Shown here piece by piece: positions 7,601 to 63,966 of a stretch of 64,000 nucleotides of DNA (positions within the stretch are counted from its first letter, which is position 1; every line of letters starts with the position of its first letter). Origin of the DNA: Sphaerolaimus hirsutus (Eukaryota > Nematoda > Chromadorea > Monhysterida > Sphaerolaimidae). Under the pieces are notes generated by a model, which saw only the letters and a program-made list of their open reading frames with translations, had not been told where the DNA came from and did not search any database. The stretch is taken from the NCBI GenBank assembly GCA_964036195.1, contig OZ038460.1, positions 17,673,504-17,737,503 of the forward strand, written 5' to 3'. A program made the position numbers and the translations under genes.

Positions 7601-7627
7601 TGGAAGTGGAACAGTGGAAGTTATGGA

Positions 7628-8456: not shown

Positions 8457-8461
8457 TATCA

Positions 8462-17203: not shown

Positions 17204-18601
<1,398 letters not shown>

Positions 18602-20366: not shown

Positions 20367-20587
20367 ATAGTTGCTTAAACGTATTTGCATTTACTCGCTT
20401 TTACGTATACTCAAGTACTGACTAAATGAAGGGTGTGCTTCTAAAAGTACCGATCTACAAATTTTTCAAATTCGAGTTGGCCCATTTTTGGGGTCCCCAT
20501 AAAAACGCGCTTCAAAAAATATATAATATGTGGGGGGTGCGAAATTCAATTTTGAGATATGGGGGGCCGAAAAATGCAAAAAAGCAA

Positions 20588-20796: not shown

Positions 20797-23700
20797 TTTC
20801 TGAGTCGATTTGACCAGATCAAGGAGCAGATTTTGTCCGGAATCAATAAACAATCAGGTAAAAATTATTATAACTTTTAAGTTTAAAAACTAGTGATGTT
20901 AAAAGTGCTGCAACTTAAAAAATTTTAGAAGCGTTTGCCATTGTTCAGCGACCAATGCTAGGCACCTTTACATAACTTCTCCAGTGACCAATTTTTTGTA
21001 ACCTAAAGTCCCCACACAATAGTTTTCTACAAAGTTTTTTAAAAAAGTTTGAACACTCATACATTAGTTTGGAATGCATTGGAGTTTAAATCATATGAGT
21101 CTTTTTCATTTCTAATCTCCATCAACAGTAGTTGACAAACTTCATTCCGGTGAACTGACATGGGCTCTTAGCTGATTTATGAATTTTCCAATTTTCTTCA
21201 GAAATTTCAGTGCAAAAGTAGGTAGTGTAGTGTGTGCAACGATGGGTGAGTTCTCAAAATAAAAACACTTTCTGTATTTTGAGTTTTTCAAAAATGAATA
21301 TCTGTGTTTTGAGTTTTTTTCACGAAAAAAACTTGAGTTTCTGTGTTTTATTTCTGTGTTTTTTGAAAAAACTTGAGTTTTTTGGTAAAAACTCAAGTTT
21401 TTTGATAAAAACTTGAGTTTTTTGATAAAAACTCAAGTTTTTTTAGTAAAAACTCAAGTTTTTTGATAAAACTCAAGGTTTTTGATAAAAACTCAAGTTT
21501 TTTTTGTGAAAACTCGAGTTGTTTTACAAAAAGTTACATTTTACAGCATTTTACTGTTGAAACAGTGGTTTTCTTATCAAACATGTGTTTTGCATACGTT
21601 TTGGCGTGTATTGGAAAAATTTTCATTACCTGGTTCACTGGAGGTAGTTCCAAATGGGTGACCAATACCTTTGACAGCTTGGAAGGTGAGGAGCCCTCAG
21701 CTCAATTGTGTGAGCTAGCAGACCTTGGTGGACACTCCTCAACACTTCAATCGCAGTCCCTAATATTGTCGAAACCACCAGGAGATGTGGACACCATTAT
21801 ATTTTGGATACTTATTTCAACTTGTTAAACTTGGATACTATGTACATATTCACACACTATACATACATGCATACCTTATGTATGCACATACACACATTGT
21901 TCAGATCAAATTTTGTGCCTTCGATTGCTTTGATAAAAAACTCAGAAAACATTTCCGTATTTTCCGTGTTTCCGTGTTTCCGTGTTCTCCAAAAAAGAAC
22001 TCATTTGAGTTTCCATGTTTTTCAAAATTGTTGAGTTTCCGTGTTTCCGTGTTAAACAAAAACACGGAATCTCAATGAGTTTCCGTATTTAATATGTGTG
22101 TTTTTGCCATCGTTGAGTGTGTGTGTAGTGCAAAATAGTATCCAAAAAACACACGTCCTAACAGGCAAAATATCAGAGTCTCTTGTAAAACGCGAATGTA
22201 ACCACAACATAGATGAAAGCGATTCCCGATTTTCGGACGCAATTGACAATAATCCTATGTGGGCCGATGTTATGGTGAGTAGAGAATTAATTGTGCAATA
22301 TTTTGGTCTATGAATATAATTATGTGGCTACACATACTACATAGTTGACTGTTACTGAGCAGTCAACTGAAAAATCTATTTTGAAAGCAGTTCGGTTAAC
22401 AGTTGACACTTAATGTTTATCTCGAAAAATTGATCTCGATCAACTATGTCGTAAATAACTACCTATGTAATTTTGTGTTTCCGTCAACCAATGCGTGTTG
22501 AAGATAGATTTTTTAGTTGACCACTCGCCGATTGTCAACTAAAGGATGTAGCTTTTTGAGAAACTGAAAAAGCTAGAATAAAACGTTGCAGCCACCCCCA
22601 CCAGTTGCTGAAAGCAGCTGCAGTTTATCACCGGCGGAACAATACCAAGTGTTAATGGAAAATGCTCGTCTGAAGAGCGCACTCAAACAAAGGTATATTT
22701 ACTTCTCAGGTCCAAAGTACTTTATGCCAATTCCGCAACTGGACAAGTGTCACAAAAGTGGTAAGTGGCAAGGAAAGTGTCATGTGACTGTCACTTAGAT
22801 CACCACTTACAACCACACCTACCTACAACTTTTCTCAACACTTCTCTAGTTGTGGAACTGGCACCTGAACAAAAACAAATAAAAAACAACAAAAGTCCCC
22901 CAATAGTTCCGCGAATGCAAAACAATGGGAAAAGGAGCTGCACCGTTTGCAATTGGCCAATGAGCACTTAGCCACGCTGGCGCGCATGGGCTACATCAGG
23001 TGCCACTCCCAGACCCTGTAAAAGACCCTGTAAAGTGTCAAAGACCCTGTAAAATGTCATTTGTCATGTAAAAGACCCTGTCAAATGTCATGTGTCATGA
23101 TAAAGACCCTGTAACGTGTTATGTGTATCCAAATCTTATTTTATCGTATCACAATTTTATGTTTTTGTATCCAAATCTTACTTTTTGACATAAGATTGGA
23201 TACAAAAACATAATATTTGGATACGATAAAAAATGATTTGGATACACATGACACTTTACGGGGTATTTTACATGACAAATAACATTTTACAGGTCTTTTA
23301 CACTTTACAGGGTCTTTTACAGAGTCTGGGAGTGCCCCCAGACTGGACCAGAACCACGCGCAGCTGCAGGGCAGAAGCGCCAGCGCCAGCCCGAGACACG
23401 CGGCCGCTGGCGGCGCCCCTGTGCACCTGGTGGGCGGAGTCGGCGCTGGGCTGCTCATTGGTGGGGCCAGAGGTGGGTAGGTTTATTTGGTGGTGAAGTG
23501 TGGTTGATTAAAAATGTGTATGTATTGTTGAAACTTTATTTGGAATGCCAGCACACACACTAGTTTACCAACACGAAATGCTCGACCATTTTGGTAAACT
23601 GTTTTGATAAAACAGTACGAAGCACCGTACAAATCTGTACTGTGTTTTGTCCTGTTTTGTCAAAACAGTTTACCAAAATGGTCGAGCATTTTGTGTTGGT

Positions 23701-37189: not shown

Positions 37190-37531
37190 TCAAGCAGTGG
37201 ACATTTCCTCCAACTCGTCCACAGGGAAGCACATAAGAGCTTCATCGGGCATATCAGCGAAGTCCTTGTCACCTGGGGGCAGTCCCAGACCCTGTAAAAT
37301 GGCCTGTAAAATGTCAAATTTCATGCAAAGTGTCTAAAGTCATGTAAAATGCACTGGAAAAGGGCAAACGTATGTTTGCCATTTTACCGGGCAGTTAACA
37401 TGAATTTTGACACTTTGCATGACATTTGAACTTTTACAGGGCATTTTACAGGGTCTGAGTTTGCCACCATCTGCTTTCATCGCAGAACCATACATGCAAA
37501 ACAGGTCTGGTTTTTTGATGGGAGACACCAT
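37190..37531 (-). CDS. Small gene MVSP..., paralogue split by an introner
   Basis: On the minus strand, exon 37531-37468 encodes MVSPIKKPDLFCMYGSAMKAD plus one base, and exon 37272-37190 completes GDKDFADMPDEALMCFPVDE..., ending LEEMSTA and TGA. Together 48 residues, in frame. The intron-free paralogue at 28691-28852 reads KADSPGDKELADMPDG at this point, so the intron sits exactly where two residues (SP) differ. Function unknown. Exon conservation with an acidic C-terminus suggests a real coding region rather than chance. Confidence 0.6.
37273..37467 (-). mobile_element. Introner family 1 forming a whole intron
   Basis: Read on the minus strand it starts GTGGCAAACTCAGACCCTGT and ends CAGGGTCTGGGACTGCCCCC plus AG. 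Removing it joins GCA GAT G with GT GAC AAG. The uninterrupted paralogue at 28780 reads GACTCCCCAGGCGACAAGG, so CCCCAGG on the acceptor side was already in the target. Confidence 0.85.
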
Positions 37532-38312
37532 GGTGGATGGATTTGGAGCTGTGCGGGGGGGGGGGCATTTTTGTATGATTAGAATTATGTTTTATTTGGC
37601 AATTTTGGTTCAAAATGGCTTTGGATTAGGCAGTTATGATCTGGTGATCGAGTCAAGAAGGAAGGAAATATATCAAGTTGCGTTTTGCGTATTTTTCTGT
37701 TGGGAGTTTTTGGGAATTTTGGCCAATTTAGACAAAAGAATTTAAAAAATGCTAAAAATACTCTTTGATCAGCTTAACTTAATTACACCTAGTATTGAAG
37801 AATGGGATATTGAGAGAATATTTTTATTTCAACTATAATATAATATCAGAAAATCCTGAAGAAGATATTGTGATATCCAGAAAAATACCAGAGCTTTTAT
37901 TTGAATGCTTTGGATCATGGTTTAGGATTAGAAAAATCTATAAACTTTGGAAATTGTCACATACTTCAAACAGGCTGCACAAACTAATCATATCAACCTT
38001 CAAATCTTTTCAAATTCTAACCAACTTGGTAGGTCGATTTGAAGATGGAAAACTGACTTTTTTCTGCACTGCGAGACGATCGGCAACTGATTGAATATTT
38101 TTTCTCGAAACGGGTGACTTTTACACTTTCTCCTCACAGTTTTGTTACACATCAACTTCAATAACAAAATTCCATTGAAATTTTCGTCTATAGTGGTTTA
38201 ATATTTAAGTCTGCGATGACAAGGTCGTTCAAAGTTTAGTCGGGTGCGTTATGCATAATATGGTGGCAACACTTTTACCGTTCTTGAAGCAGATAGCGCC
38301 ATTGTTCCACTG

Positions 38313-38734
38313 GTGGCAATCCCAAGCCCTGTAATGTGTAAAGTAAGTGTCAAATGTAAAGTCAAATGTCAATTTTCGTGCAAAGTGTCAAATGTAAAGT
38401 AAAGTGTCAATTGAATATCCAAATCTTATTTTTGTATCCAAATATGATGTTTTTGTATCCAAATCTTATATCGAAGAATAAGATTTGGATACAAAAACAT
38501 AAGAGTTGGATACGTAAATCCTAATATTTGTATACACAATTGACAATTAACTTTACATTTGACACTTTGCATGACATTTGACACTTCACTTTTCATTTGA
38601 CTTTACATTTGACACTTTACTTTACATTTGACTTTACATTTGACACTTTGCATGACAATTGACATTTGACTTTGCATTTGACTTTACATTAAACACTTTA
38701 CTCTACACTTTACAGGGCTTGAGACCGCCCACTG
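38313..38734. mobile_element. Introner family 1 copy, non-exonic
   Basis: GTGGCAATCCCAAGCCCTGT to CAGGGCTTGAGACCGCCCAC plus TG. It is flanked by CCACTGGT on both sides (38309-38316 and 38729-38736, overlapping the tips). It carries two subfamily cores, TATCCAAATCTTAT and TTGACTTTACATTTGACACT, so may be a composite. It ends TG, not AG, and no exon adjoins. Confidence 0.75.
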
Positions 38735-46569: not shown

Positions 46570-47103
46570 TTATTTTTCTGCGGGTAGTTTATAGAGGTGT
46601 TCTAAACGCGAATGATTTTCACCTAAATTGCCTTGACCTGTTGCGTTTACCTTGCTTTTTTCTATTTCCGTGGGTGTTTTGGCCATTTGGTTTATTGGTT
46701 GAAGAACAGCTAAATTATTTTTAATTGAAATAATTTTGTACGGTCCATTATAGATTGGCTCTAATTTTTGCCTATTGAATTGTTTTTTTAAAACAATATC
46801 TGAAACTTGGAATTTATCTGTAATGGCAACTTTTCTAGAATTATTGAACCATTCAGTATATTTCTTCTTAGCGTAGTCTGTCAATAATTTGGCTGTTCGC
46901 CAATTTTTTTGTGGATTGTCAGTTGCGAATAAAGACGCAGTAAATCTATTGAATTTGGGCAACCGGTGAAACACCATGAGAAATGGGGGTTTTTGTGCAA
47001 TTGTATGCACTTTCATGTTTAGTTTCAAAGCTGCTAAAGAAGCGAAATGGGGCCAGTCTTTGGAGTCATTTTCTTTTAGAATAATTTGTAGCAGTGTACA
47101 CAA
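46570..47103 (-). pseudogene. Gypsy-type retroelement, integrase C-terminal part
   Basis: A 177-residue minus-strand ORF. The N-terminal half resembles the last part of a retroelement integrase core; the C-terminal half has VSDIVLKKQFNRQKLEPIYN followed by GPYKIISI, the typical integrase tail pattern (a basic segment, then Y-x-GPYxV). Protease, reverse transcriptase, RNase H and the integrase catalytic residues are missing. It lies directly after the Gag ORF on the same strand and just past the end of the 377-aa gene. It is a dead element. Confidence 0.7.
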
Positions 47104-47123
47104 TGTTCTGATTGTTCGTTTGG

Positions 47124-47902
47124 CTATACCATTTTACGTGTAGATTCGTGCGACCCGCGCAAATCTTCATTTTGCGACGTTTTCCTCGGTGCAAATTTTG
47201 TACTGGAAACCTTCTGTTCTCGTGTGAAGTGATGTTTTTCCTTATACCCCAAGCGTTCCAGATTAAAGAGATATTCGTCTAGCATTTGTGCTGCGTGTCT
47301 TGGCTCTGTTACTTCCCCATTTTGAATCTTCAGATGCAAGTCGAAAATTATGGCTTTATCGAATCGTTGCAACTGTATTCCCCTTAGTAGACACATTAGA
47401 ATCAACGTTTTTCTCTGTTCACTGGGCAGCAATTTTATATATTCATGTGGGACTTTACTCATGATGCGTGTGCAAAACTTGATACATGATTCATCGTCGA
47501 ATTGAGCCAACTTTTCCCACTTATCCACGGGAAGTCTCAAACCATGTGTTTTGTAGGTAGTTTCCAACTCCGCTAGGACGAACTCATAGTCACTTTTCTG
47601 GTCTTTTGTAAATGACTTGAAGAGCTCTTTAGTGGACCCTTCCAATTTCACCCGGAAGATGATGTTCCAAAATTGGGTTATACTTCCCTGTGGCAGCATA
47701 AACAGATGCTGGTCTACGGTTTCCTTCCAATCTTTGAAATGCTGCTTTTCACCTTTAAACACGGGGATGGTGTGTAACAATGTTGGTAAAGTTGTACCGA
47801 CAATCATTGCGTTGTCTGAATTATGAGAAATTGTCTGGGTGATTTCGCTTTGCGCGGTGGGAGGAGTTGGTGGGTGTGTAACATTATCGTAAAATGTAAA
47901 AC
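47124..47902 (-). pseudogene. Retroelement Gag-like ORF, truncated
   Basis: About 255 residues of minus-strand ORF up to the scaffold gap. Its pattern (FKGEKQHFKDWKETVDQHLF, YEFVLAELETTYKTHG, IKFCTRIMSKVPHEYIKLLP) is that of Gag proteins of LTR retrotransposons. The N-terminus is in the gap; the C-terminus breaks off at GSHESTRKMV, perhaps the start of a zinc knuckle, where an internal deletion joins it to the integrase end. No LTR could be identified. Confidence 0.65.
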
Positions 47903-48102
47903 NNNNNNNNNNNNNNNNNNNNNNNNNNNNNNNNNNNNNNNNNNNNNNNNNNNNNNNNNNNNNNNNNNNNNNNNNNNNNNNNNNNNNNNNNNNNNNNNNN
48001 NNNNNNNNNNNNNNNNNNNNNNNNNNNNNNNNNNNNNNNNNNNNNNNNNNNNNNNNNNNNNNNNNNNNNNNNNNNNNNNNNNNNNNNNNNNNNNNNNNNN
48101 NN
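47903..48102. other. Assembly gap, 200 N
   Basis: Exactly 200 undetermined bases. Confidence 0.99.
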
Positions 48103-48835
48103 TTTTTGGAGAACACGGAAACACGGAAACAGAAAATACGGAAATGTTTTTTTGAGTTTTTTTATCCAAGCAATTGAAGGCACAAGATTTTAACTGAACA
48201 ATGTGTGTATGTGCATACATAAGGTATGCATGTATGTATAGTGTGTAAATATGTACATAGTATCCAAGTTTAACGATGAAATAAGTATCCAAAAAAATAA
48301 TGTGTCCACATCTCCTGGAGGTTTCGACAATATTATGAACTGTGATCGAAGTGTTGGGGTGTGTCCACCAGGGTCTGCTAGCTCACACAATTGAGCTGAG
48401 CGCTCCTCACCTCCAAGCTGTCAAAGTATTGGTCACCCATTTGGAACTACCTCTAACGAACTAATGAAATTTCTTCCAATACACAACAAAACATATGCAA
48501 AACAAATATTTGATAAGAAAACCACTGTTTCAACAGTAAAATGCTGTAAAATGCAACTTTTTGTAAAACAACTCAAGTTTTTCCAAAAAAACTTGAGATT
48601 TTATCAAAAAACTTGAGATTTTATCAAAAAACTTGAGTTTTTATCAAAAAACTTGAGTTTTTATCAAAAAACTTGAGTTTTTATCAAAAAACTCAAGTTT
48701 TTTCAAAAAACACAGAAATAAAACACAGAAACTCAAGTTTTTTTCGTGAAAAAAACTCAAAACACAGATATTCATTTTTGAAAAACTCAAAATACAGAAA
48801 GTGTTTTTATTTTGAGAACTCACCCATCGTTGACT
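48103..48835 (-). repeat. Inverted copy of repeat 21180-22085
   Basis: Reverse-complement copy with the same order of blocks: TTCCGTGTTTCC runs, TAAGGTATGCATGTATGTAT, GTGTCCACATCTCCTGGAGG and many ATCAAAAAACTTGAGTTTTT units (48560-48700). It starts directly at the scaffold gap. Confidence 0.8.
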
Positions 48836-49480
48836 GCAGAACACACGTTAAAACAATGTCGGTGTCACGTTAGAACAGTGTACATACCATCTACATACTA
48901 ATATTAGTCCACAGAACCTTATAAATGGCGGTTTTTGTTGCATTTTTCGACGTCTGCGTACGTTTCAGACGACAATTTCGTACTTGGTTTTCAAAAATTT
49001 TCTTGTGAAATAATAACCCCACCCCTCGAAATACCCCCCCTCGTTTAACCCCCCCCCCCCCTCTCGGGACCACTATGAAACAATCACCCCGCGGGGGTAT
49101 TTCGAGGAAATACGGTATATAAGGACATAAGAGGGATGTAAACGTACATAACTACACAAACTAGCGTATATGTAAAATGGTCGCAATAAATACATCATGT
49201 TCCTTGCGTACATGATGTACCTTATTCCAGAGGGGGGGGGGGGTATTTCGAGGGGGGTTTATTTTTTTCTCAGCTCGAAAACACCTGGGGGTATTTCGAG
49301 GGGGGTTAATTCAAGGGGGTATTTCGAGGAAATACGGTAATTTAGTAATTTACTTACCTTTTATGCAGTGTAAACATAAAAATCTTACTAAACGTTTCCT
49401 GTACTCCGTGGTGAGTAAAGTAAAAATACTTCATGTTCACGTTTACTTTGAAGAATGTTCAGTACTTTTTACAACTCTGG
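48836..49480. repeat. P-type MITE pieces and a family T right end
   Basis: 48836-49118 is the right half of a P-type MITE ending GGTATTTCGAGGAAATACGG; 49220-49341 is a second, G-rich piece. 49341-49479 is family T sequence ending TACTTTTTACAACTCTG, immediately followed by zinc-finger coding sequence. Confidence 0.65.
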
Positions 49481-50463
49481 TGCACACGGGGGAGCGGCCC
49501 TACGGCTGCAAGTACTGTGGCAAAACTTACGCTACACAGGGTTCATTGAAAAGACACGTGAATGCTATCCACCTAGGTCTGCTACCACACGATTGCACCC
49601 ACTGCGAGAAGACATTCTACACACAATCAGAGCTGAAAGTGCATATGCGCGTGCACACGGGCGAGCGGCCGTACGTCTGCGAGCAGTGCGGCAGGGCATT
49701 TTCTTTACGCGGTGAATTGAACAATCACGTGAATGCCGTTCATTTGCGCCTGCAGCGGGACAAGTGCACCCACTGCGGCAAAACATTTCGCTGGAAGAAT
49801 TCGTTGGCTTTGCACTTCGCGGCGGTGCACCTGGTGCCACTCCCAGACCCTGTAAAAGACCATGTAAAGTGTCATGTGTCATGTAAAAGACCCTGTGAAA
49901 TGTCGTGTGTATCCTAATCTTATTCGATCATATCGAAATAATATTTTTTATATCCAAATCTTATGACAAACATAAGATTTGGATACAAAAATGTTAGATT
50001 TGGATACCATAAAATTTTATTTGGATAGACATCACACTTTACTGTGTCTTTTGTTTGACACATGACATTTTACAGGGTCTTTTACAGGGTCTGGGAGCGC
50101 CCCCAGGGTGAAAAGTCGCACGAATGTCAGCTTTGCGGCACGGCTTTCAACCAGAAATACCGTTTAGCTGGACACATCAGAACTGTGCACTTGGGTGAAA
50201 GAAAGCACGAGTGCGAGCATTGTGGCAAGGCGTTCAGCAGCAAACCAATGTTGATGAGGCATGTCAACTCAGTCCACCTAAAGCAGCGCACACACAAGTG
50301 CGGTCAGTGTGGCACGGCTTTTCCTGATAAATGTACTTTGGCCAGGCATATCAGATCAGTTCACTTCAAGCAGAAGCCGCACAAATGTGTGCACTGTGCC
50401 AGCTCGTTTCGGTCGCGCACGCACCTGAAAAGACACGTACTTTCACTGCATGAGGATGAGTGA
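49480..50463 (+). CDS. C2H2 zinc-finger gene D, 3' part
   Basis: A probable nuclear DNA-binding protein. Exon 49480-49833 and exon 50107-50463 (TGA) encode eight C2H2 fingers: CKYCGKTYATQGS, CTHCEKTFYTQSE, CEQCGRAFSLRGE, CTHCGKTFRWKNS, then after the intron CQLCGTAFNQKYR, CEHCGKAFSSKPM, CGQCGTAFPDKCT, CVHCASSFRSRTH, ending SLHEDE. The first codons, VHTGERPYGC, follow a family T element with no start codon, so the 5' part is missing. Gene A stops at the same linker. The intron 49834-50106 is an introner in a finger linker and splicing restores HLGEK. Gene B is uninterrupted at this point. Confidence 0.8.
49834..50106 (+). mobile_element. Introner family 1 forming a whole intron
   Basis: Starts GTGCCACTCCCAGACCCTGT and ends ACAGGGTCTGGGAGCGCCCC plus CAG, with a TATCCAAATCTTAT core. 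Removing it gives CAC CTG GGT GAA AAG (HLGEK), which matches the uninterrupted gene B sequence CACCTGGGCGAAAAG at 57713 without gain or loss of a base. Confidence 0.9.
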
Positions 50464-50479
50464 TGACTGACCGGACTAG

Positions 50480-50663
50480 GTGCCAGTCCCAAGCCCTGTA
50501 AAGTGTAAAGTAAAGTGTCAAGTGTAAAGTCAAATGCAAAGTAAACTGTCAAATGTCATGCGAAGTTCTGTAATTCAATCTTTTCTATTTTGTATTGATT
50601 GCACTTTACTTTGCATTTGACTTTACATTTGATACATTTTACAGGGCTTGGGACCGCCCCTTG
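50480..50663. mobile_element. Introner family 1 copy, non-exonic
   Basis: GTGCCAGTCCCAAGCCCTGT to CAGGGCTTGGGACCGCCCCT plus TG, 16 bp after the gene D stop codon. It ends in TTG rather than CAG. Subfamily with TTGCATTTGACTTTACATTT. Confidence 0.75.
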
Positions 50664-50701
50664 GGCAGTTGGTGCAGCTATGCCTTGCCACGACCACGAG
50701 T

Positions 50702-51078
50702 AGGGTTCAAGCGTGATCCCGATCCCGAATCCCGATAAGTTTTGGGATTTTGAGGCACGATCCGATAATTCCCCCAATGCCGATCCCAAAATAATGATCC
50801 TCCCTAATACCAATCCCAGAAATATGTACCAAATTGGCCAAATGACTTTTTTGCACGATGAAATGTGAACGGAAAGTTACGTTGTACATTTGGAGCCACT
50901 TTTCTGCCATTCAAGAATGTTTTTCCAAGCAGCCTACTTTGTTCAAAATCCCGATCCTGATCACGGAACGGAACCCTGATCCTGATCCCGACCCCAAAAA
51001 TTCAAAGAAACGAGTTCCCGGTCTCGAAAATTAAAAAAATTGCAGTGACAAAAAGTCGATCCCGTTTGAACCCTAGCC
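50702..51078. mobile_element. GATCCCGATCCCG TIR element, complete
   Basis: TAGGGTTCAAGCGTGATCCC at the left and GATCCCGTTTGAACCCTAG at the right form the TIR; the interior is full of GATCCCGA words. Partial relative at 33602-33790. Confidence 0.75.
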
Positions 51079-51158
51079 ACCAGTCAGTTGGAAGATATGA
51101 AGTGATACCAGCTTTGCAGATATCGCCAGTGATCATTATTGATACGCCGCTAACCAAA

Positions 51159-51398
51159 TACCGTATTAACTCGAATTAACCCCCCTTAAATAACCCCCCC
51201 CCTCTCTAGCTATTTATCTATGTTTTTGTGTACAAATATATCCAGTTTGGACGCATTTATTACCTGTTTTAGGTACGCAAATTCCTACTCTTTACTAGGA
51301 TCTTTGCAAAAATTTCTGACGATATAATAACTCCCCCCCCTCAAAGTTTGCTGGCGAAATAATAAACCTTCATGGGGGTATATCGAGGTAAGATGGTA
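51159..51398. mobile_element. P-type MITE (TACCGTATTAACTCGAAT)
   Basis: TIRs TACCGTATTAACTCGAATTA and TATATCGAGGTAAGATGGTA with TA tips. C-tract interior. The GCATTTATTACCTGTTTTAG core also occurs at 16400. Confidence 0.7.
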
Positions 51399-51654
51399 CC
51401 TACTGTATTTACATTGTATTTATACATATAGGTAAGTTGATCGGGGAGTTGTTTTTCAAGAGTCTTTTGACTCTGGAGTTATTTCAGGGGGACTATAATT
51501 TCATCGGAATTTTTGCAAAACTTCACCATCAATTTAATGTTCCTTCCTATTCAAGCAGGTTTTTCCCTCATTTGGATCAATGGGGCGAATAATTCAAGAG
51601 GGTAATCTAATGCAACTTTTTTGAGGATCTGTGGTATTTTAGTTTCAATAGGTA

Positions 51655-52075
51655 GTTACCATGACGTAGGCTCATCCCACATCTAAACCAATCCCACATC
51701 TAAATCTACTTTGTCTCTCAAATAGACTGGATTAGGGAATTTCAAAAAAAGTCATGATGACACAATGTAATCAATCTAATATAACATGTTAGAGTGTTTT
51801 AGGGCAATTTGACACCACATGTGTTTAAACTTGACAGTTGACAACTCATGAGTGCAGTCAGTGTTATTGAGTACAACATTGATCTACGAAATCACCGAGT
51901 CATCGAAAGTGGCTCTTAATGTAGCACTTTTTAATCATCAACATTTTTTTGCATCCATTATCCACCAAAAATGTTAGGAATACGCATCAAATATGGCAGG
52001 CATCCAATTTCTGGGCCAGGATGTGGGATGGGTTTAGATGTGGGATGGCACAGACCCGTTACCATAAGATCATTA
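51655..52075. mobile_element. TIR element CATCCCACATCTAAACC
   Basis: Left tip GTTACCATGACGTAGGCTCA with TCCCACATCTAAACC; right tip GGTTTAGATGTGGGATGGCA followed by CAGACCCGTTACC. Non-coding, about 420 bp. Confidence 0.65.
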
Positions 52076-52079
52076 GCTG

Positions 52080-52847
52080 ACATTAGGTTATCGATTCCTT
52101 GTTCTATCTAGGTAAATAGTAATTTAGACATTGGTTTGTGACCACTTAATTTATATACCTAGCTATATATTTTATTCTCAATGCAAGATATGTCTGATGC
52201 ATAAAGTGTTTTAAATGAAGCTGAAGATAAAAAATGATTACATCAAAAAATGTGTGACCTGCGATGTGTCGTTCAATTTTTAAAACGTCTTTAACTTTAC
52301 TCGAACGGTACGTATGTATACCAACCGAGTAATGAGTAAATACGTTCGTTTCCTGCAGAAAAATACCAGTACTCCCCTTTAAGCGTACTTTTTGAGAGTA
52401 CGTGAGTACAGAAAACGTAAAACGAAAATTTATGGGCTGCATAAAAAACAAGTGACTCAAACGATTGGAACGTGTAAAAATGGCAGCGGAAATGATCGAA
52501 GTTGCGATGGGTAGGTAAAACGATTTGGACTTCTACTCCATTTTACTCCTGGGTAGAAAATCGAAAAATACTCACGTTTTCACTGAGTAAAATGCAAGTA
52601 TTTACGTCTACTCACTTTTTAGGCAGTGCAAAAGTAAAACCTTACATTGAGTTTGCTTTACTTAGGTGTGAGTAAAAATATAGTACTTTACATACATGTT
52701 TACTTTGAAAACAGTACGGTACTTTAACCACTCTGCATTCAATTAAAATAGGCGTGATGCGAAGCGATGAAATCGTCAAATTTGTGCACCAAGATGTGTC
52801 GATTTCAAATAGTCGCGGATTGAATCACTCGAACTTCACCCGACCTG
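52080..52847. repeat. Family T DNA
   Basis: TTTACTCGAACGGTACGTAT through TACGGTACTTTAACCACTCTG (52734) is a worn family T copy. No gene is seen. Confidence 0.45.
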
Positions 52848-53092
52848 GTGCCAGTTCCGCAAAATGAGAAGTGAGAAGTGAAATGGCAAAGGTGAAGTGA
52901 AATGGCAAAGGTGAAGTGAAATGGCAAGTGAATTGGCAAGTGAAATGGCGAAAGCAAAGAGAAATTACTTTTTGATTTTGATTTTATTACTTCGCTTTTG
53001 CCAATTCACTTGCCGTTTCACTTGGCCTTTGCGCTTCTACTTCGCCTTTGCCATTTCACTTCTCACTTCTCATTTTGCGGAACTGGCCCCTG
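52848..53092. mobile_element. Introner family 2 copy, non-exonic
   Basis: GTGCCAGTTCCGCAAAATGA to TTTTGCGGAACTGGCCCC plus TG, the best-preserved family 2 TIR pair. CTG precedes the left end and CTG closes the right end, so no AG acceptor. The interior repeats AAAGGTGAAGTGAAATGGC. Confidence 0.75.
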
Positions 53093-53159
53093 GACCATTC
53101 TGCTTGGCTGTGCTACAACTTCCAAGTGTTTCATGTGCTGCAGTTGTGATGAAATGCGC

Positions 53160-53370
53160 CACGGCGCTGGTGACGCTTTAGGGCGCCAAAAAGTGCCATT
53201 GTGCTTGGCGCCTTTTTCTGTGTCGGCCGGTGCTCCTTTTCTGCGACCATGGCCCCATTGGCGCCTTTTTGTTCCGGCGGTTTTCCAGTCCCTGTCCGCA
53301 GTCGGCGGCAGGGTGGTTTGGCTACGGCGTTAAATTTGGCACAATGCCAGGACAATGTGAGTCGTTACGG
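53160..53370. repeat. GGCGCC-rich element
   Basis: TTTAGGGCGCCAAAAAGTGC and TGCTTGGCGCCTTTTTCTGT resemble the GGCGCC-rich part of the gene A intron (19752-19915). Several overlapping ORFs here have no family match. Confidence 0.4.
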
Positions 53371-53709
53371 AATGACGTTCATAAAAGGAATGGGTTTATG
53401 CCTGCGCAGCTTAAAGTGTTTTCGGTTGCAGTATTTTGCGTGTCTGCGACATTGCAAAAAACTGCAGCAACATATCAGTGGTGGCATTCCAACTGCCAAT
53501 CAGTGTGTGTGTGTATTATTGTGACAGAGTGTCATTTTTACATCCAGCGACAGAAAAATGGCCCATAAGTATAATCACAGCTGTATCACACGCCTCGCAG
53601 TAATTCAGTCGATTAGATTTAAATGTTAGAGCAACCGACGCACTGGCGTCATGCCAATTACGTCATAAAAAAATTGTTCGAGGAAAATATTCACGCGAAG
53701 AAAAACCAG

Positions 53710-53848
53710 TGCGACTAGTATCCAAAAGTGATGTCGTTTTTCAAAAAGGGGAGGGGTCAACCTAACGCACTTTCGAGCGGCACCGAGAACTTGTCACGAT
53801 TGCAGAAAAGAACCTGTTTGCAGCGGGGCCTGGCACAACATGACAGGT
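53710..53848 (+). CDS. Possible first exon MSFFKKGRGQ
   Basis: ATG at 53731 gives MSFFKKGRGQPNALSSGTEN, then LSRLQKRTCLQRGLAQHDR, and a GTATGT donor at 53848. Only one exon is visible; transposon repeats follow. No family recognised. Confidence 0.3.
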
Positions 53849-53885
53849 ATGTGCTTTTACACACTTTTTTACTGAGCGGGGGTTC

Positions 53886-54022
53886 ATCTAGCACGACAAA
53901 ATGCTCGATTTGCCTGTTAATCTTGTGGCCATAGATGTTTAAACACGTTTGATTTATTGCAATTATAAAAGCAGTGGGTAGAGTTGGCTCTTTTGCACCG
54001 ACATTTTTCTAAAAAATACTTA
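53886..54022. repeat. Second copy of repeat 205-358
   Basis: GACAAAATGCTCGATTTGCC through ATAAAAGCAGTGGGTAGAGT matches the window start. Confidence 0.7.
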
Positions 54023-54326
54023 TCAGGAGAAAAAACACATCCTTGATGTATTCTACAACAAGAATTGATGAAATTTCTGACTTTCACGTTTTCTGCAAGA
54101 AAAAATACTCACTTACACTCTGTCTGTGAGAAAAATACTCATTTTTATGTTTTCTGTGAGAAAAATACTCAGTTTTATGTTTTCCCAGAAAGAAAGTATA
54201 TTACTCACGTTTTACACAGTGTAAAGGTAAAAGTTTAAGGTAACGTTGTTACTCTAAATTTTCTGTACTCAGCCGAGAGTAACAAAAATACTCTACGTTT
54301 AGGCCACATTTACAGCTTTTTTTTGT

Positions 54327-54705
54327 GACAACTCAACAACTCAAAAAAGTTCAATAAGCTGGGTAAAAATCTTCCATAATCATGAGAAAAAGTGATCAAC
54401 TACACATTCTACCTAGGCAGATTTGCATGTCAAATTGCAGAATTGTGCTTGTAAAAGCTCAAGTGTTATTAGCTGTTGGATGAATTTTGCCATTGTCGCT
54501 GGTTGTTGCCGGCTCTCGTGTAACTGTCCGACAATGGCAAACTTTTCCAACATTCATAACTTTTGAGCTGAAAGTATGATTCTACAATTTGACATGCATA
54601 TTCACCTAGATAGAATGTATGGTTGACCACTTTTTCCCATGAATATGGCACCTATTTACTCAACTTATTGACTTTTTTGTGTTGTCAAGTTGTCACAGAA
54701 AAAAC
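54327..54705. mobile_element. Foldback element GTGACAACTCAACAACTC
   Basis: GTGACAACTCAACAACTCAA at the left matches the complement of TTGTGTTGTCAAGTTGTCAC at the right; inside, TTGACATGC/GCATGTCAA and AGTTGATCAC pairs continue the symmetry. It is nested in family T sequence (54030-54740). Confidence 0.65.
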
Positions 54706-54784
54706 CTTTTGAAAAAGTTCAGTACTTTTAACAACTCAGGTAAAATTGCGCACTTTCTTGCCAAAAATGCAAAGTAGGTATTAG

Positions 54785-55972
54785 GTTGTAAACTAATGAA
54801 GTGTCTTTTTTCGCCATCTCATACAAATATACATTTGTGCTTTCCATTGTGTTGTACGTTGACCGATTTGAGTATGTTGTGGTTTGGGGTCTGGGCTATG
54901 ATGAAATGTTTTTGTTTGCTCAAATAATCCCCCAGTCCCGAGATAAGGGGGGTCTATAAAAAGGTGGTCATTTTACGTGGCCAATATGCACATTGACTTT
55001 GAAGCTTGATAACTCAGCCATTTCTGGGCCGATTCGGATCGTTCAACACTTAAAATAACCAGGACAATCCGCAGATTCAATTTTTGTGGTCGAGTTAGTG
55101 ATGTTTTAATCCTGTATGCCGATTTGACCCGGTTTTTGAACATGAAAAATAATCGTAATTACAATTTTTCAAGACGATTTTGTTGAAGTTGCTATCATAT
55201 ACTATATACAAAAAGAATAAATCTGGCTCAAAAATTATTTCAATATCTCTCTCCAGTCAAAAGTTATATCACTTTAAACATTCGCCTCCCAACAATAAAT
55301 AGAAAAATCTGCATGACGAGCAAATGCATGTGACTTCAGAAATCCATATCTCGGCCATTTCTCAGCCAGTTTCCACCAATGAACACTTAAAATGATCAGA
55401 AAAACCTGTAAGTTTCATTTTTATGCTCAGGTTATGTGTATTCATCGTTCTTGATTAGTTATTTACATGTATGGGAGGCGGAAGTTAAAAGTTATATTAC
55501 TTTTGATTGGAAAGAGATATTGAAATAATTTTTTTGGTATATGAATCCCTATTGTCTAAAGTATATGATAGCATGTTTCGAAAAAAATTTTTTTGGTGTT
55601 TAAAAACTGGGCCAAATTGGCATACGTAATTTAGACATCACTAATCCGACCACAAAAATGGAATCTACTGGTTGTGCTGATCATTTTAAGTGTCGAACGA
55701 TCCAAATTGGCCCAGAAATGGCTGAGTGAGTAAGGTTCAAAGTGAATGTGTAGATCGGCCATGCAAAATGACCACCTTTTTATAGACCCCCCTTATCTCG
55801 GGACTGGGGGATTATTCGAGGAAACAAAAACATTTCTTCATAGCCCAGACCCCAAACCCCAACATACTCAAATGGCAACAAAATCGGTCAACGTACAAAA
55901 GAATGTGGAATGCACAAATGTATATTTGTATGAAATCGAAAGAGACACTTCATTAGTTTACAACCTAATATA
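54785..55972. mobile_element. 1.2-kb foldback element, relative of 15465-16270
   Basis: Inverted arms carry GTTTGGGGTCTGGGCTATGA, CCCCAGTCCCGAGATAAGGG and GTTGTAAACTAATGAAGTGT with complements on the right. Central arm sequences ACACTTAAAATGATCAGAAA and TTTGACCCGGTTTTT recur in the smaller copy and inside the family 3 element (17730-17760). Confidence 0.8.
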
Positions 55973-56107
55973 ATACTCCGGCAATGAGCACTAAAGTTTT
56001 GGCTCTTGTTTAAAAAACGTGTGGTTTTCATGTTTGCATTTTTAAAGCTTCGTTGTGCGGTGGTTCTCCGATGTTCTCCATTGTGTCTGGGAATCCTTTG
56101 TCATCAA

Positions 56108-58168
56108 ATGGTTTCAATCACTCATCATTTTGCAAACACTGTTTACCTCCATGACTCAGATGGGCGGAGCTTGGGGAGCGCGGCGAGCGGCCATTGGCCA
56201 ATGGAGCAGCGCGGCAGCAGCGAGCGGAGCGCAGGGGTGAGTGCCCGCAGCCGTGGCCTCTGTCGCAGCTCACAGCTGGGGCAGGACCAGTGCACAAGTA
56301 AACGCGGTGCACAAGTAGTCCCGGTGTACAAGTTTTTATACCCCATGCACAAGTTTTTATGCCCTGTGCACAAGTCGTCTACCCGGTGCACAAGTACGGG
56401 CACTATACCGTATTTCTTCTAATAGAAGGGCAGATCTCCAATAGAAGGGTGTCTCCAATAGAACGTACACATTTTCTACTTAATTTTGGCCACAAAATAA
56501 ATAGAAGGTGGTCTCCAATAGAAGGTACACAAAAAAGGGGTGTAATTGTGTTAAATGCATAAAAAGGAAAAAATGTCAGCGAATGTTGTGATTTAGTGGC
56601 TTTGGTCCATTGATTTGGCGTCATTTTAACATAAATCTTGAATGAACTCTATCAATCGTCATTCTGTGAACTGCCTGTGACGTAACGCTTTGAAAAACCA
56701 CGACAGAAAGTGGAAAAATTGGCTCAAAAATGACGGAAAATAGAAGGGCGGGTAGAAAAGATGACAAAAAGATAAGGCCGTCCTTATATTAGAAGAAATA
56801 CGGTACTTGTGCACCGGGTATACTTATGCACGGGGTATAAAAACTTGTGCATCCGGGCTACTTGTGCACCGGGTTTACTTGTGCACCGACACACACCTCT
56901 CACAGCCATTCCCCTCGCAGGCGGCCGGGGCGGCGGGGCGGGGCTGCGAGCGTCTCAGCGTGCTCGTGCAGCTGATGCACCCGCGCACTGCACGGCGCAG
57001 GGCACAGCACAGGCAGGGCAAGCAGTGCACTCTCTGCGGCAAGACATTCCCCACACAACAAAGGGTGAACAAACACATGCACGTGCACACGGGCAAGCGG
57101 CCGCACTCGTGTGACTACTGCGGCAAGACATTTACCGGACCTTCGAAATTGAAACTGCACACGCGCGTGCACACGGGCGAGCGGCCGCACAGCTGCGACC
57201 AGTGCGGCAAGGCGTTCTCTCAGCTGGTTCACCTGAAGACACACGTGAATGCTGTGCACCTCGGCCTGCGACCGCATGCGTGCGTTATCTGCGACAAGAC
57301 ATTCAGCACGCGCGCACATCTGAGCAGCCACAGGCGCGTACACCTTGGCGCTCGGCGGCCGTACGTCTGCGACCAGTGCGGCAGGGCGTTCTCTTTACGC
57401 GTTGTATTGAACAATCACGTGAATGCTGTGCATTTGCGCCTGCAGCCGGGGGCAGTCCCAAGCCCTGTAAAGTGTAAAGTAAAGTGTCAGATGTAAAGTC
57501 AAAGGCAAAGTAAAGTGTCAATCAAAACAAAAACGAAAAGATGTTATTACTGAACTCTGCATGACAATCGACAGTTTACTTTGCATTTGACTTTACATTT
57601 GACACTTTACTTTACACTTTACAGGGCTTGGGACTGCCACCAGGAGAAGTGCACCCACTGCGGCAAAGGTTTCAGCCGGAAAGATTCGTTAGCCTTGCAC
57701 ATCCGTACGGTGCACCTGGGCGAAAAGTCACACAAATGTGAAATTTGCGGCGCCGCTTTCACCCAGAAACACCATTTACTTGAACACATCAAGGCTGTGC
57801 ACTTGGGCGAGAGAGAGCACGAGTGTCAGCATTGCGGCAAGGCGTTCAGCAGCAAACAAACGTTGTCGATGCACGTTGATGCAATCCATCTACAGCGGCG
57901 GACACACGAGTGCAGTCAGTGTGACAAGGCATTTGCTCTAAGGCGTGGATTGACCACGCACATCAGAATGGTCCACCTGCAAGAAAAATCACACGAGTGT
58001 GTACACTGTGGCAAGGCATTTGCATCGAGGATGCTCGTGAAAAGGCACGTGCGGGCAGTGCACTTGGGCGAACGGCCGCACAAATGCCCCCAGTGCAGCT
58101 ACGCCGCCGCGCATCTGGGAAACTTGAAGAAACACGTTTTGCACGTGCATCCAGTGCATTCAGAGTGA
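56108..58168 (+). CDS. C2H2 zinc-finger gene B, 11 fingers
   Basis: A probable nuclear DNA-binding regulator; targets unknown. Exon 1 56108-56236 (ATG inferred; ends RGSSERSAG), exon 2 56921-57454, exon 3 57644-58168 (TGA). Exon 2 opens AAGAAGRGCERLSVLVQLMH, then fingers CTLCGKTFPTQQR, CDYCGKTFTGPSK, CDQCGKAFSQLVH, CVICDKTFSTRAH, CDQCGRAFSLRVV; exon 3 has CTHCGKGFSRKDS, CEICGAAFTQKHH, CQHCGKAFSSKQT, CSQCDKAFALRRG, CVHCGKAFASRML and CPQCSYAAAHLGN, ending HPVHSE. Linkers are HTGERP early and HLGEK/HLGER later. Intron 1 holds a Y-type MITE and GGTGCACAAGT tandem words; intron 2 is an introner. It is the most complete of the four zinc-finger loci. Confidence 0.85.
56285..56895. repeat. GGTGCACAAGT array split by a Y-type MITE
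   Basis: Units of about 20 bp such as CGGTGCACAAGTAGTCC occur at 56285-56405 and, inverted or direct, at 56806-56892. The complete MITE 56406-56805 lies between the two parts. All is inside intron 1 of zinc-finger gene B. Confidence 0.7.
56406..56805. mobile_element. Y-type MITE (TTCTAATAGAAGGGC), complete
   Basis: TIRs are TACCGTATTTCTTCTAATAG and TATTAGAAGAAATACGGTA with TA tips, 400 bp. The interior has GTGACGTAACGCTTTGAAAA. Relatives are at 30904-31250 and, in the palindrome, 35433-35640 and 34665-34750. Confidence 0.85.
57455..57643 (+). mobile_element. Introner family 1 in reverse orientation as an intron
   Basis: The left tip is GGGGGCAGTCCCAAGCCC and the right tip GGGCTTGGGACTGCCACCAG, so relative to other introner introns the element is flipped. 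The usual GTGCCA donor is therefore absent on the left; the first GT is inside the TIR (GGCA-GTCCCAAG). Using it and the CCACCAG acceptor gives LQPGA-EKCTHC in frame, one residue longer than gene D (LQRDKCTHC), which has no intron here. Loss of one residue instead would need a non-GT donor. Confidence 0.75.
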
Positions 58169-61232: not shown

Positions 61233-63902
61233 CTGCATCCTCAAAAACTACATGTGTGTCCTTTACACCATGCAACCTCAAAAGTGGTGTTTTTATCTTG
61301 TCAGCCTTGAGTATATCGGACCGCTCTTTGTACCACTGTGCTCCCTCGGGGGGTTTTCCTGGGGGCAGTCCCAGACCCTGTAAAAGCCCTGTAAAGTGTC
61401 AAATGTCATGCAAAGTTTCAAAAGTAATTTTGCCATTTTGCCAAAAGTTAACCGGATTTTGCAGGGCATTTTCCATGGCTTTTGACACTTTGCATAACAT
61501 TTTACATTTTACAGGGCATATCACAGGGCTTGGGATTGGCATTGGCACCAGTCGGTCCCGTTCCCATCCATTAATAAATCCCACTTCCACATGACCGAAT
61601 TAGGATTCAGTCCCTTGTATTCCGGAGCTAACAGCAAATTTGCGTAAAAGTCAAATAATCCGTATTTTATCACGGCGCACTTTAGCAGGTCTGCGGCCAG
61701 TTCCGCAAGTGCAGAAGTGAAACAGCAAACTGCGAAAGCCAAGTGAAATGGCAGGTCAAGTTTAAAAACAAAAGTGCCATTTCATTTCCCACTTCTCATT
61801 TCACTTGGCTTTTGCCATTTCACTTGGCTTTTGCCATTTCACTTGGCTTCATTTGCGCTTTCACTTCTCTGGCGGAACTGGCACCTGGTTCTTCGGTGAC
61901 GATGTATGCCATGGCTATGCCGCCGGAGCTGCCCCCTGCGAAACGAATCGTGTCGTTTTGTCAGTGTTTATAGCGAGCCCAATGTCATATTGGGAATTTT
62001 GTGTCGAATGATGGATTCCGACGACAATGTTTTGATGATTGTGTTTGATGAGGATAATGGGATAAATGAATGGAATGATCAGTAAATTCATCTAAAAGTG
62101 AAAGGAAGGGTGTTGTCTGATGCTCAACAGCAAGAGCACTCTCTTAAAAAAATTTTACACTTACACTTTTTTACACTTTCCTAGGTATTTTAAAAATACC
62201 TTATGCTTACAGTATCCATACTCAAAATTTGGAAAGTGTATTTATGCTTACACTTACACTTTCCAAAACTACCAGTATTCTAACAACTCTGGTAGGAAGA
62301 TGACATTTCCGGATATATGTATGGAAGAAAATTTTGAGTTTCTGTGTCTGTAGATTCCAAATCCATGATAAAAAGGGGAGCAAAATTTTATACTTAAATG
62401 TGCATTTTTGTATGACAGCACCCTTCCAAATTATGTTTTATAAAAGATGGAGGTATACAAATGAAAGACCATGAAAAAATAACATGAGTTAATGATGAAA
62501 ACTTCTTTCATAAAACTGCATCTGAGTCTTCAGAGTGGGATTGTCTGTGATGTAGAAATCAGTGTTGGGCTGTTTCAAACTGCTGTGGAAGAAAAGTGCA
62601 GGCATCGTTTTTTGATTTTTTTTTTTGAATACAACTACCGTATTTCCTCGAAATACCCCCCCCCCCCCTTGAGATACCCCCCCCTCGTTTGACCCCCCCC
62701 CCCCTCTCGGGACCACTATGAAACAATCACCCCCCCCCCTCGAAATACCCCCCCCCCAAATTGAGTGTAAAGGGAACGTACATGACAAATACTGCAGTTT
62801 GTGTTCTGTGTACTGCAGAACACACGTTAAAACAATGTCGGTGTCACGTTAGAACAGTGTACATACCATCTACATACTAATATTAGTCTACAGAACCTTA
62901 TAAATGGCGGTTTTTGTTGCATTTTTCGACGTCTGCGTACGTTTCAGACAACTATTTCGTACTTGGTTTTCAAAAATTTTCTTGTGAAATAATAACCCCC
63001 CCCCCTCGAAATACTCCCCCCCCCTCGTTTAAACCCCCCCCCCCTCTCGGGACCACTATGAAACAATCACCCCCCGGGGGGTATTTCGAGGAAATACGGT
63101 ATGCAATTGAGCACAGTTTTTGTATAATTTGCTAAGCTTTGACTTCAAAACTGAAAATTTGGTTCCATTTTCAAAATTTCAGTCATGATTTTCAGTGAGA
63201 GAAAAAAGGCTGATGAAGTTTGTTTGTATGGGCAAATTAATCTCCAAAACTCTCTTGACAAAAATCCAAAATACTGATCTGATAGATTATATCATGCAAA
63301 AGTTATGAATTTCCCAAAAAAAAACAGCCTGAAAAATGATAACTTTTGACTTTGATCAATTTTTTCAGTAGGAAGATGACGTTTCCTGATATTTTTATGG
63401 AAGAAAATTTTGAGTTTCTATAAATACAAGTAGATTCCAAATCCATGATAAAAAACGCCAAAAAAATTTTTGTGACATAGCAGGGAATCGTTAACTTCAC
63501 GTTTCCCCCCATGGACTTCTTCCCCCAATGGTGTGATGCATTAGCGTTATGTGCCGACATAACGCTAATGGAACACGACAAAACGCTAATGCAACACGGA
63601 CAAAACGCTAATACAACACACTCCGGGGCAAGTTGTCGCAGTACCTGTAATCGCAGGGAATGGGCATGTTTGGTTCTTGATCTTGGGTAAAGCGAGTCTT
63701 AAGGTGTTACCAGGGTAAATATGCGCAATGTAAACAGCGTGAACTTACCATAGCCGCATATCGTGTCAGGATCAGTCAACCCTTGCTGAATGGCCCACCT
63801 GGCCGAATCGACCACATCTTTGTAAACTGAGCCGCGGACACCCTGACCAAAGCCAGCCACCCAGTAATCGTTGCCATTTTTTATTGACCCTCTATAGTTG
63901 CA
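61233..63902 (-). CDS. S9 (prolyl-oligopeptidase family) serine peptidase, partial
   Basis: Predicted alpha/beta-hydrolase peptidase that cleaves peptides or acyl-peptides. Minus-strand exons: 63902-63749 (CNYRGSIKNGNDYWVAGFGQ..., ending GLTDPDTICGYG), 61935-61885 (GSSGGIAMAYIVTEEP), 61690-61549 (DLLKCAVIKYGLFDFYANLL...) and 61358-61233 (KPPEGAQWYKERSDILKADK, IKTPLLRLHGVKDTHV). The NYRGS motif, the nucleophile elbow GGSSGG (catalytic Ser) and the HG-x-x-D segment (catalytic Asp) are all in family order; the catalytic His and the N-terminal propeller lie outside. The first two junctions keep frame exactly. The third (intron 61359-61548) shifts frame if spliced GT-AG, so the gene may be damaged or spliced unusually. 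Intron 1 (63748-61936) holds a MITE; introns 2 and 3 are introners of two different families. Confidence 0.8.
61359..61548 (-). mobile_element. Introner family 1 as intron in the peptidase gene
   Basis: On the minus strand it starts GTGCCAATGCCAATCCCAAG and ends GGTCTGGGACTGCCCCCAG. GT-AG removal joins GAC TG with G AAA ACC, which leaves the S9 frame. Removing two bases fewer (TGCC...CCCA) would give GAC TGG GGA AAA CCC, that is DWGKPPEG, which fits the family pattern. Confidence 0.75.
61691..61884 (-). mobile_element. Introner family 2 forming a whole intron
   Basis: On the minus strand it starts GTGCCAGTTCCGCCAGAGAA and ends TGCGGAACTGGCCGCAG. Removing it joins GAA GAA CCA G with AC CTG CTA, giving EEPDLLKC in the conserved stretch after the catalytic serine. 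The ends are inverted repeats of the same family as 52848-53092, and the intron contains nothing else. Confidence 0.85.
62120..62295. repeat. Family T-like right part
   Basis: TTTTACACTTACACTTTTTT through CAGTATTCTAACAACTCTGG is close to the right end of 13431-14246. It lies in intron 1 of the S9 peptidase gene. Confidence 0.5.
62300..62635. repeat. Short repeat also at 63368-63465
   Basis: GGAAGATGACATTTCCGGAT through AGATTCCAAATCCATGATAA recurs at 63368-63450 with few changes. Intronic in the S9 gene; no exon seen. Confidence 0.55.
62636..63101. mobile_element. Family P MITE, complete (466 bp)
   Basis: Perfect TIR TACCGTATTTCCTCGAAATA / TATTTCGAGGAAATACGGTA. It is more than 90% like 58712-59163 by eye. 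It is inserted in the first visible intron of the S9 peptidase gene. Confidence 0.9.
63535..63625. repeat. 19-bp short tandem repeat
   Basis: Four units of about 19 bp, AAAACGCTAATGCAACACGG and variants, partly inverted (TTAGCGTTATGTGCCGACAT). Intronic. Confidence 0.7.
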
Positions 63903-63966
63903 CTGTGCGGCACATGTGTTTGCTTGTAAATAGCGTTTTTGAATGTATTTACATCTCGTTAGAATA

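Follow-up and report, generated by a model that had tools for sequence, protein, structure and literature searches.

Introners are a leading explanation for bursts of intron gain, and the cases known from animals are few. In the parts of the study by Gozashti et al. 2022 (PMC9860276) compared here, they were reported in 175 of 3,325 genomes, copepods being named, and in two animal groups only. According to the same parts, one introner of Chrysochromulina brings its own 5′ splice site and obtains the 3′ site from a duplication of 4 bp. The family described below resembles the introners of that study, as far as the parts compared go, in forming repeated introns that are similar to near the splice sites, many with terminal inverted repeats (TIRs) and/or target duplications; those parts contain no family with a 3-bp CWG duplication, and the present one may be in the per-family tables (PMC9860276). 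The logic of carrying a donor and recruiting an acceptor is thus already known.

The passages compared from the description of the NuwaI transposons (PMC4482050) give them CWG target duplications, tips that are usually GGG, TIRs of 12–61 bp and exclusively animal hosts: bony fish (12), a beetle, a crustacean, a mollusc and an anthozoan. Most of the autonomous candidates of NuwaI encode a DDE transposase and a Myb/SANT protein, PIF/Harbinger proper makes a TWA target duplication, and no link to introns is drawn in those passages (PMC4482050). The hairpin introners of Amoebophrya, in the parts of their description compared (PMC7789003), have inverted repeats that fold to hairpins, like the copies studied here, and show direct repeats of 3–5 nt across the exon/intron borders. 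They differ in their mostly non-canonical motifs, their inverted repeats of 8–20 nt and their dinoflagellate-parasite host, whereas the present copies have GT..AG ends, with the exception of copy E7 (see below), and fold to near full-length hairpins. In the copepod Eurytemora affinis, about 12% of the donors are GA or GG, preceded by an obligate exon-terminal AG, in recently gained introns (Robertson 2017, PMC5714493). The likeness to the present case lies in a recent burst of intron gain in an animal and in an exon-terminal AG such as a CAG duplication would give; the difference is that no transposon origin was proposed (PMC5714493). A link between introners and CWG elements was not found in the literature searched, which covered few subscription papers or preprints. 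The locus was analyzed within a window, that is, the whole stretch of DNA considered, 64 kb in length, and all the counts and statistics given below refer to this one window.

The insert at 49834–50106 and its empty site

The features of the locus are as follows:
49363–50462, + strand: C2H2 zinc-finger gene 1, ORF pieces flanking the insert (zf-H2C2_2 1.3e-24 for the 140-aa joined piece)
49831–49833, + strand: 5′ target copy CTG, end of the upstream exon and Leu of HLGEK; the empty site of the paralogue is also CTG
49834–50103, + strand: the transposon itself (copy E5), 270 nt, GTGCCACTCCC...GGGAGCGCCCC, a foldback MITE as judged from sequence and arms
50104–50106, + strand: 3′ target copy, now CAG, the predicted splice acceptor according to the comparison of target copies
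49834–50106, + strand: predicted intron of zinc-finger gene 1, 273 nt, GT..AG, made of E5 plus the 3′ target copy
57719–57721, + strand: codon right after the E5 empty site in zinc-finger gene 2 (site between 57718 and 57719)

The original prediction placed an insert with inverted-repeat ends in the linker between two zinc fingers, and it is found there, the fingers being of the C2H2 type: 273 nt, GT...AG, with GTGCCACTCCCAGACCC as first and GGTCTGGGAGCGCCCCCAG as last letters. The arms, at 49830–49939 and 49998–50107, are 110 nt each and 78% complementary, the inverted repeat being imperfect at the tips (5′ GTGCCA; 3′ GGGGCG on the other strand). Excision joins CACCTG to GGTGAAAAG, which reads HLGEK. 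The further claim that this takes place with no base added or lost agrees with the paralogue, zinc-finger gene 2 at 56.8–58.2 kb, which has no interruption at the same codon (GTGCACCTGGGCGAAAAG at 57710). There the empty site reads GTGCACCTG followed directly by GGCGAAAAG, as compared with GTGCACCTG and GGTGAAAAG at the two sides of E5; the insert adds exactly 273 nt, with zero bases lost or gained. Around the junction, gene 1 and its paralogue align ungapped with 53/68 identical nt on the left and 255/350 on the right.

Two other claims needed correction. Transposon and intron were said to share exactly the same boundaries, and they differ by three bases, as the predicted intron takes in the 3′ target copy in addition to the element. 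The element was also said to carry its own splice sites; it does bring the GT, but the AG lies in the duplicated target. The 3′ target copy of E5 (CAG) differs from the 5′ copy and from the paralogue by T to A alone. Because the latter two are both CTG, the comparison indicates that the target was originally CTG and that the 3′ copy changed T to A, the sole change that creates the predicted acceptor.

Concerning the reading frame, the flanks of E5 are open over 100 + 100 codons, which is the ceiling of the 300-nt flanks examined, while random joins open over at least 90 codons on both sides amounted to 261/38152. Open frames are strong evidence at E5 only.

Copies of the element in the window and its probable transposon affinity

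The terminal motif GGKGSCANTCCCARRCCCTGTAAA, allowing up to 3 mismatches, has 18 matches in the 64-kb window and 0 in 100 shuffles, so that the ends do recur elsewhere, as had been predicted. The matches correspond to both ends of eight copies, one end of E8 and an isolated end at 16655–16678. The catalogue, made by eye and by script, contains nine two-ended copies of a first family (E1–E9) and two more, F2a and E11, of a second family whose tips are related; left out of these counts were a 3′ half copy at about 17190–17269, the single end at 16655–16678, a weak partial match at 8384–8459 and a possible second-family end at 22867 (− strand), whose partner end was not located. Besides E5, the copies and the S9 peptidase gene that holds two of them are the following, with sequences given as 5′ target copy, tips of the element and 3′ target copy:
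22997–23341, + strand: E1, between two coding-like stretches; CAG, GTGCCA...TGCCCC, CAG
23779–23998, + strand: E2, non-exonic; CTG/CTG, no AG
25079–25277, + strand: E3, in an exon-like stretch with no decidable frame; CAG, GTGCCA...TGCCCC, CAG
37273–37470, − strand: E4; ATG, GTGGCA...TGCCCC, CAG
38310–38734, + strand: E9, non-exonic; CTG/CTG
50477–50668, + strand: E6, just beyond the stop codon of gene 1 and in the same orientation; 3′ tip degraded (CCCCTTGGGCAG)
52845–53092, + strand: F2a, non-exonic, second family; CTG/CTG
57446–57643, + strand: E7, in zinc-finger gene 2, reversed with respect to the gene; CCG, GGGGCA...TGCCAC, CAG
61233–63928, − strand: fragment of an S9 prolyl-oligopeptidase gene, exons 63928–63749, 61935–61885, 61690–61549 and 61358–61233
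61359–61551, − strand: E8, in the S9 peptidase gene; CTG, GTGCCA...TGCCCC, CAG
61691–61887, − strand: E11, second family, in the S9 peptidase gene; CAG, GTGCCAGTTCCGC...GCGGAACTGGCCG, CAG

Most copies start with GTG(C/G)CA and end with TGCCCC. The 5′ tip is GTG, and thus has GT, in 11 of the 11 copies. The opposite tip has G at position 2 in all 11 as well (the end of E6 being read, with uncertainty, as AGGGGC) and begins with GGG in eight, the deviating ones being E6, E9 and E11. The target duplication, of the type CWG, measures 3 bp, and the flanks take the form CNG. Both target copies are CTG in the non-exonic E2, E9 and F2a, and both are CAG in the exonic or exon-like E1, E3 and E11; they are unequal in 4/7 exonic copies, namely E4 (ATG/CAG), E5 (CTG/CAG), E7 (CCG/CAG on the sense strand) and E8 (CTG/CAG). 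Leaving out E6 for its degraded 3′ tip, the two target copies are identical over 3 bp in 6/10 cases and share the final G in 10/10. Alternative boundaries, with N, NG or CCWGG as the duplication (1, 2 and 5 bp), were also considered by eye, and fewer copies fit them than fit CNG with GTG...CCC.

Among inverted repeats flanked by identical trinucleotides, 95 pairs were obtained in the window, seven of them with CAG, CTG, CCG or CGG, and these seven comprised E1, E2 and F2a together with four pairs that look like chance. The search, which was non-exhaustive (it missed E3, E9 and E11), brought up no other convincing family with CWG. The terminal motif had 0 exact matches in IMG/VR and a prokaryotic genome collection, as expected for an element of eukaryotes.

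The original prediction did not recognize the family. The family can be placed with some probability in the NuwaI group of the PHIS/Harbinger-like elements, with which the CWG duplications and, in part, the GGG-type ends agree. The window elements have the 3-bp CWG duplication of NuwaI, and GGG stands at the 3′ tip in 8/11 copies; they differ from it in their aligned arms, which run from 51 to 147 nt across copies as compared with TIRs of 12–61 bp, in the GTG of the 5′ tip and in having no evident gene. No transposase match was obtained with the three window ORFs run against Pfam. Judging by the shared sequence traits, the window elements likely belong to NuwaI. PIF/Harbinger proper was excluded, the duplications being CWG and not TWA.

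Predicted behavior of the copies as introns and competing explanations

Counting the TIR copies against introns over the whole genome had been proposed as a check, and within the 64-kb window the outcome was in favor of the prediction. A sense-strand AG is present at the 3′ end of 7/7 exonic or exon-like copies and of 0/3 copies that lie outside exons and whose duplications can be read (Fisher p = 0.008), the exonic class including E1, E3 and E4, which were called exonic partly because of the element itself. At the sense 5′ end, GT is found in 6/7 exonic copies, the exception being E7. The same proportion, 6/7, lies in sense orientation (p = 0.06), a bias that is suggestive only. Four of the 11 two-ended copies (E5, E7, E8 and E11) lie in zinc-finger or S9 exons, which cover 4.2% of all positions in the window (p = 0.0008), this share depending on hand-set exon limits and on zinc-finger exons of which one piece of gene 1 was run through Pfam and the others were called by eye. 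Reading through the element meets an internal stop in 5/5 copies tested (E1, E4, E5, E8 and E11).

Introners are recognized by shared sequence that reaches both boundaries in unrelated genes, and this is seen in the predicted introns E1, E3, E4, E5, E8 and E11; of the genes that hold these copies, with GT..AG at their tips, one encodes zinc fingers, one an S9 peptidase, and another two or three are unnamed. Mobility is indicated by the TIRs, the target duplication and the presence of copies outside introns. Exact removal leaves the coding sequence intact at E5, by comparison with the empty paralogue, and at E11, by comparison with Peptidase_S9 and solved structures. As to the remaining copies, E1 and E4 can be judged by frame only, E8 is not clean, E3 is undecided and E7 has no GT. 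The flanks of E1 are open over 43 and 46 codons, mutually in frame, and exact excision of E4 gives a 48-codon open frame, MVSPIKKPDLFCMYGSAMKAD joined to GDKDFADMPDEALMCFPVDELEEMSTA, with no family match in Pfam. Random joins were open on both sides in 4050/38770 cases (10.4%) at 40 codons and in 7479/38912 (19.2%) at 30, and the frames of E1 (43 + 46 codons) and E4 (48 codons in total) are weak evidence on their own.

The S9 peptidase gene has three predicted introns in the fragment. The first, 63748–61936, starts with GTAAGT and is without element tips, the second is E11 and the third is E8. When exons 63928–63749, 61935–61885 and 61690–61549 are joined, they match Pfam Peptidase_S9 with 6.6e-16 and 58.9 bits (cutoff 22.6), as well as solved prolyl endopeptidases/peptide cyclases (best 1.1e-8). 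The junction left by E11, TEEP/DLLKC, is gap-free nearby in three alignments to these solved proteins. It is the best independent junction of the set and is confirmed by protein homology. The catalytic-serine region, of which the motif is what we take to be that of S9 peptidases, is retained across E11. The exon that follows E8 (61358–61233) has a weak S9 match below cutoff (E = 0.0033) and is one base out of frame. Early in this exon there is a C6 run at 61348–61353, a likely spot for an error that would explain the one-base frame problem, polymorphism or decay being also possible. E8 is consistent with the introner model without being a clean case.

Copy E7 presents on the sense strand a 5′ tip GGGGCA after an exon that ends in CCG and not in AG, so it has no GT donor; identity on its right-hand side is 60/78. 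Either it needs a GG donor, which would make it a non-canonical intron, or it breaks the gene. Donors of the GG kind exist in Eurytemora affinis, although A stands at intron position 3 in nearly all the donors there, with AG preceding the intron, which sets them apart from the CCG/GGGGCA of E7 (PMC5714493).

Restoration of the frame does not by itself demonstrate splicing, since it follows whenever an element is taken out along with one of its target copies. The telling point is that the predicted cut coincides with GT..AG, at E5 and in other copies. It seems reasonable to interpret that the copies of this kind are introners, each of them a non-autonomous foldback MITE with a 3-bp CWG duplication that probably depends on a NuwaI-type transposase from elsewhere, and we regard this explanation as likely. 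What stands of the prediction of an introner is, accordingly worded, a TIR element that appears to make introns, in view of the AG and GT counts of the exonic copies and of E11 by homology. By its sequence, the element inserts at C-A/T-G sites, and the 3-bp target is duplicated. In an exon, the 5′ target copy (NNG, ideally CAG) would become the exon end, the first two bases of the element, GT, would serve as donor and the 3′ target copy CAG as acceptor, and splicing would remove the element plus one target copy with the protein unchanged. With a CAG target, both splice sites would be present at once; a CTG target would require its 3′ copy to turn into CAG, a change that has taken place at 49834. 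The GT donor would have been gained by one substitution of an ancestral GGG tip to GTG, because the 5′ tip has T, and the other tip G, at position 2.

It could be argued, instead, that ordinary MITEs broke these genes, that the zinc-finger copies are decaying pseudogenes and that frame restoration is automatic, given that taking out any insertion plus its duplication brings the frame back by definition. The lack of a GT donor in E7, in the adjacent gene, would fit this, as would the frame break after E8 and the interruption of a third zinc-finger gene at 17429–18362 by a transposon whose duplication measures 8 bp and whose ends are not splice-like. The presence of the sense 3′ AG in all the exonic copies and in none of the three others speaks against it, and so does E5, where the single difference of the 3′ copy from the 5′ one, and from the paralogue, is exactly the change that gives rise to the AG, and where the frame is otherwise open on both sides to an extent that random joins seldom reach. 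The retention of the catalytic-serine region across E11 is equally against gene decay. We consider this explanation unlikely.

Another explanation, which we rate as similarly unlikely, accepts the introns but gives them an internal donor (GTAAAA, or GTGATA in E8) with the terminal CAG or an internal TTTTACAG as acceptor, so that extra codons stay in the mRNA. The internal donor together with the terminal AG does keep the frame, GTAAAA lying after 18 nt in E1, E3, E4 and E5, and GTGATA after 24 nt in E8; it adds six or eight codons, stop-free in E1, E4, E5 and E8, and E3 is stop-free in any frame. In E1 and E5, the internal donor combined with an AG located 9 nt before the intron end is also frame-keeping. 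Acceptors of the TTTACAG type are present upstream of the terminal AG, two or three in each of E1, E3, E4, E5 and E8, and E11 has one TTTCGCAG. The internal motifs are presumably closer than the tips to the animal splice consensus, and the donor GTGCCA is, on the same assumption about the consensus, poor beyond +3. Codon-adding introners have been described from Aureococcus, in the parts of PMC9860276 compared. On the other hand, use of the first internal donor of E11 would retain 20 nt, with a frame shift at a place where the protein aligns gap-free. The internal sites nearest to the tips, GTAAAA and TTTTACAG, would leave 37 nt, with a frame shift in E1, E4 and E5, and an internal donor fails to explain why the GT of one tip is kept in 11/11 copies while the other tip keeps G. 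Given that the combination of internal donor and terminal AG is frame-keeping as well, the reading frame is no proof of a donor at the tip. It is better evidence for the acceptor at the terminus than for that donor, which is argued for by the family-wide GT (11/11) and by E11.

That these are old host introns later hit by TIR elements near their ends, or merely having similar terminal sequence, is extremely improbable: transposons are common within introns, but these tips are also found on copies that lie outside exons and have target duplications (E2, E9 and F2a), the uninterrupted paralogue is without an intron altogether, and the similarity extends to the splice sites at both ends.

Returning to introners with splice sites at the tips, RNA folding was also considered. 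E5 with 10-nt flanks gives −144.2 kcal/mol (z −16.2), and E3 and E4 give −112.9 and −111.8 kcal/mol (z −13.9 and −14.0 versus shuffles), all of them as near full-length hairpins. In the five exonic GT..AG copies of the first family, the pairing of the internal motifs is 0.7–1.0 and that of the terminal GT/AG goes from 0 to 1, the terminal sites being partly paired in most folds and not clearly open. It may be speculated that such a hairpin, in pairing GTAAAA and TTTTACAG, hides the internal motifs and perhaps steers the spliceosome to the tips. This stays an idea only, because any inverted repeat would pair internal motifs likewise.

Wider reading and surroundings in the window

A broader possibility, which we put forward tentatively and regard as rather doubtful, is that CWG transposons of NuwaI type are pre-adapted as intron makers, that reversed or unmutated tips give GG (or GA) donors, and that the donors of Eurytemora affinis are transposon tips. 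If this were true, the preferred exon end as well as the acceptor would come from the CAG duplication, the change of GGG to GTG at one tip would complete a frame-neutral, self-installing intron, and the foldback RNA would hide internal splice motifs. The obligate exon-terminal AG before the GA/GG donors of Eurytemora affinis would then be accounted for by CAG-duplicating tips. The window offers two related families, an empty site within the same window and intron-like beside non-intron copies, and with them a concrete recipe in which the target preference of a transposon can supply splice sites. It leads to the predictions that exonic copies have CAG rather than CTG, that a transposase of NuwaI type exists and that reversed copies yield GG donors.

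Concerning the rest of the window, four C2H2 zinc-finger loci were recognized by eye on the + strand, at 17270–20378 and 49363–58168, apparently forming a cluster of paralogues. Such zinc-finger clusters, together with the intron-bearing genes, suggest that the genome is that of an animal. The third locus (17421–18370) is interrupted at 17429–18362 by a 934-bp element, TAGTGATG...CATCACTA, flanked by the 8-bp duplication GCGGCAAG. This element has no GT..AG ends and provides a contrast, within the window, to the introner-like copies; we take it to be hAT-like. The 3′ half copy at 17190–17269 ends in TGCCAC CAG, flush with a zinc-finger exon, and has no 5′ partner within the 4.2–5.2 kb searched upstream. 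Around the S9 peptidase gene, the segment 58292–63100 contains many copies of a low-complexity repeat, GAAATACCCCCC / GAGGAAATACGGTA, in both orientations. On the reverse strand, at 46570–48161, there is a remnant that resembles an LTR retrotransposon, with an integrase-tail-like ORF (weak Pfam match, E 0.02) and, by eye, a gag-like ORF. Positions 2329–7275 are occupied by a tandem array of about 5 kb with a 24-bp unit (TTTGCTCACTCTCACATTTACCAT) and long repetitive ORFs, in places on both strands, and positions 7619–8138 by a 29-bp tandem repeat with 18 copies, 95% matches and an open repetitive frame.
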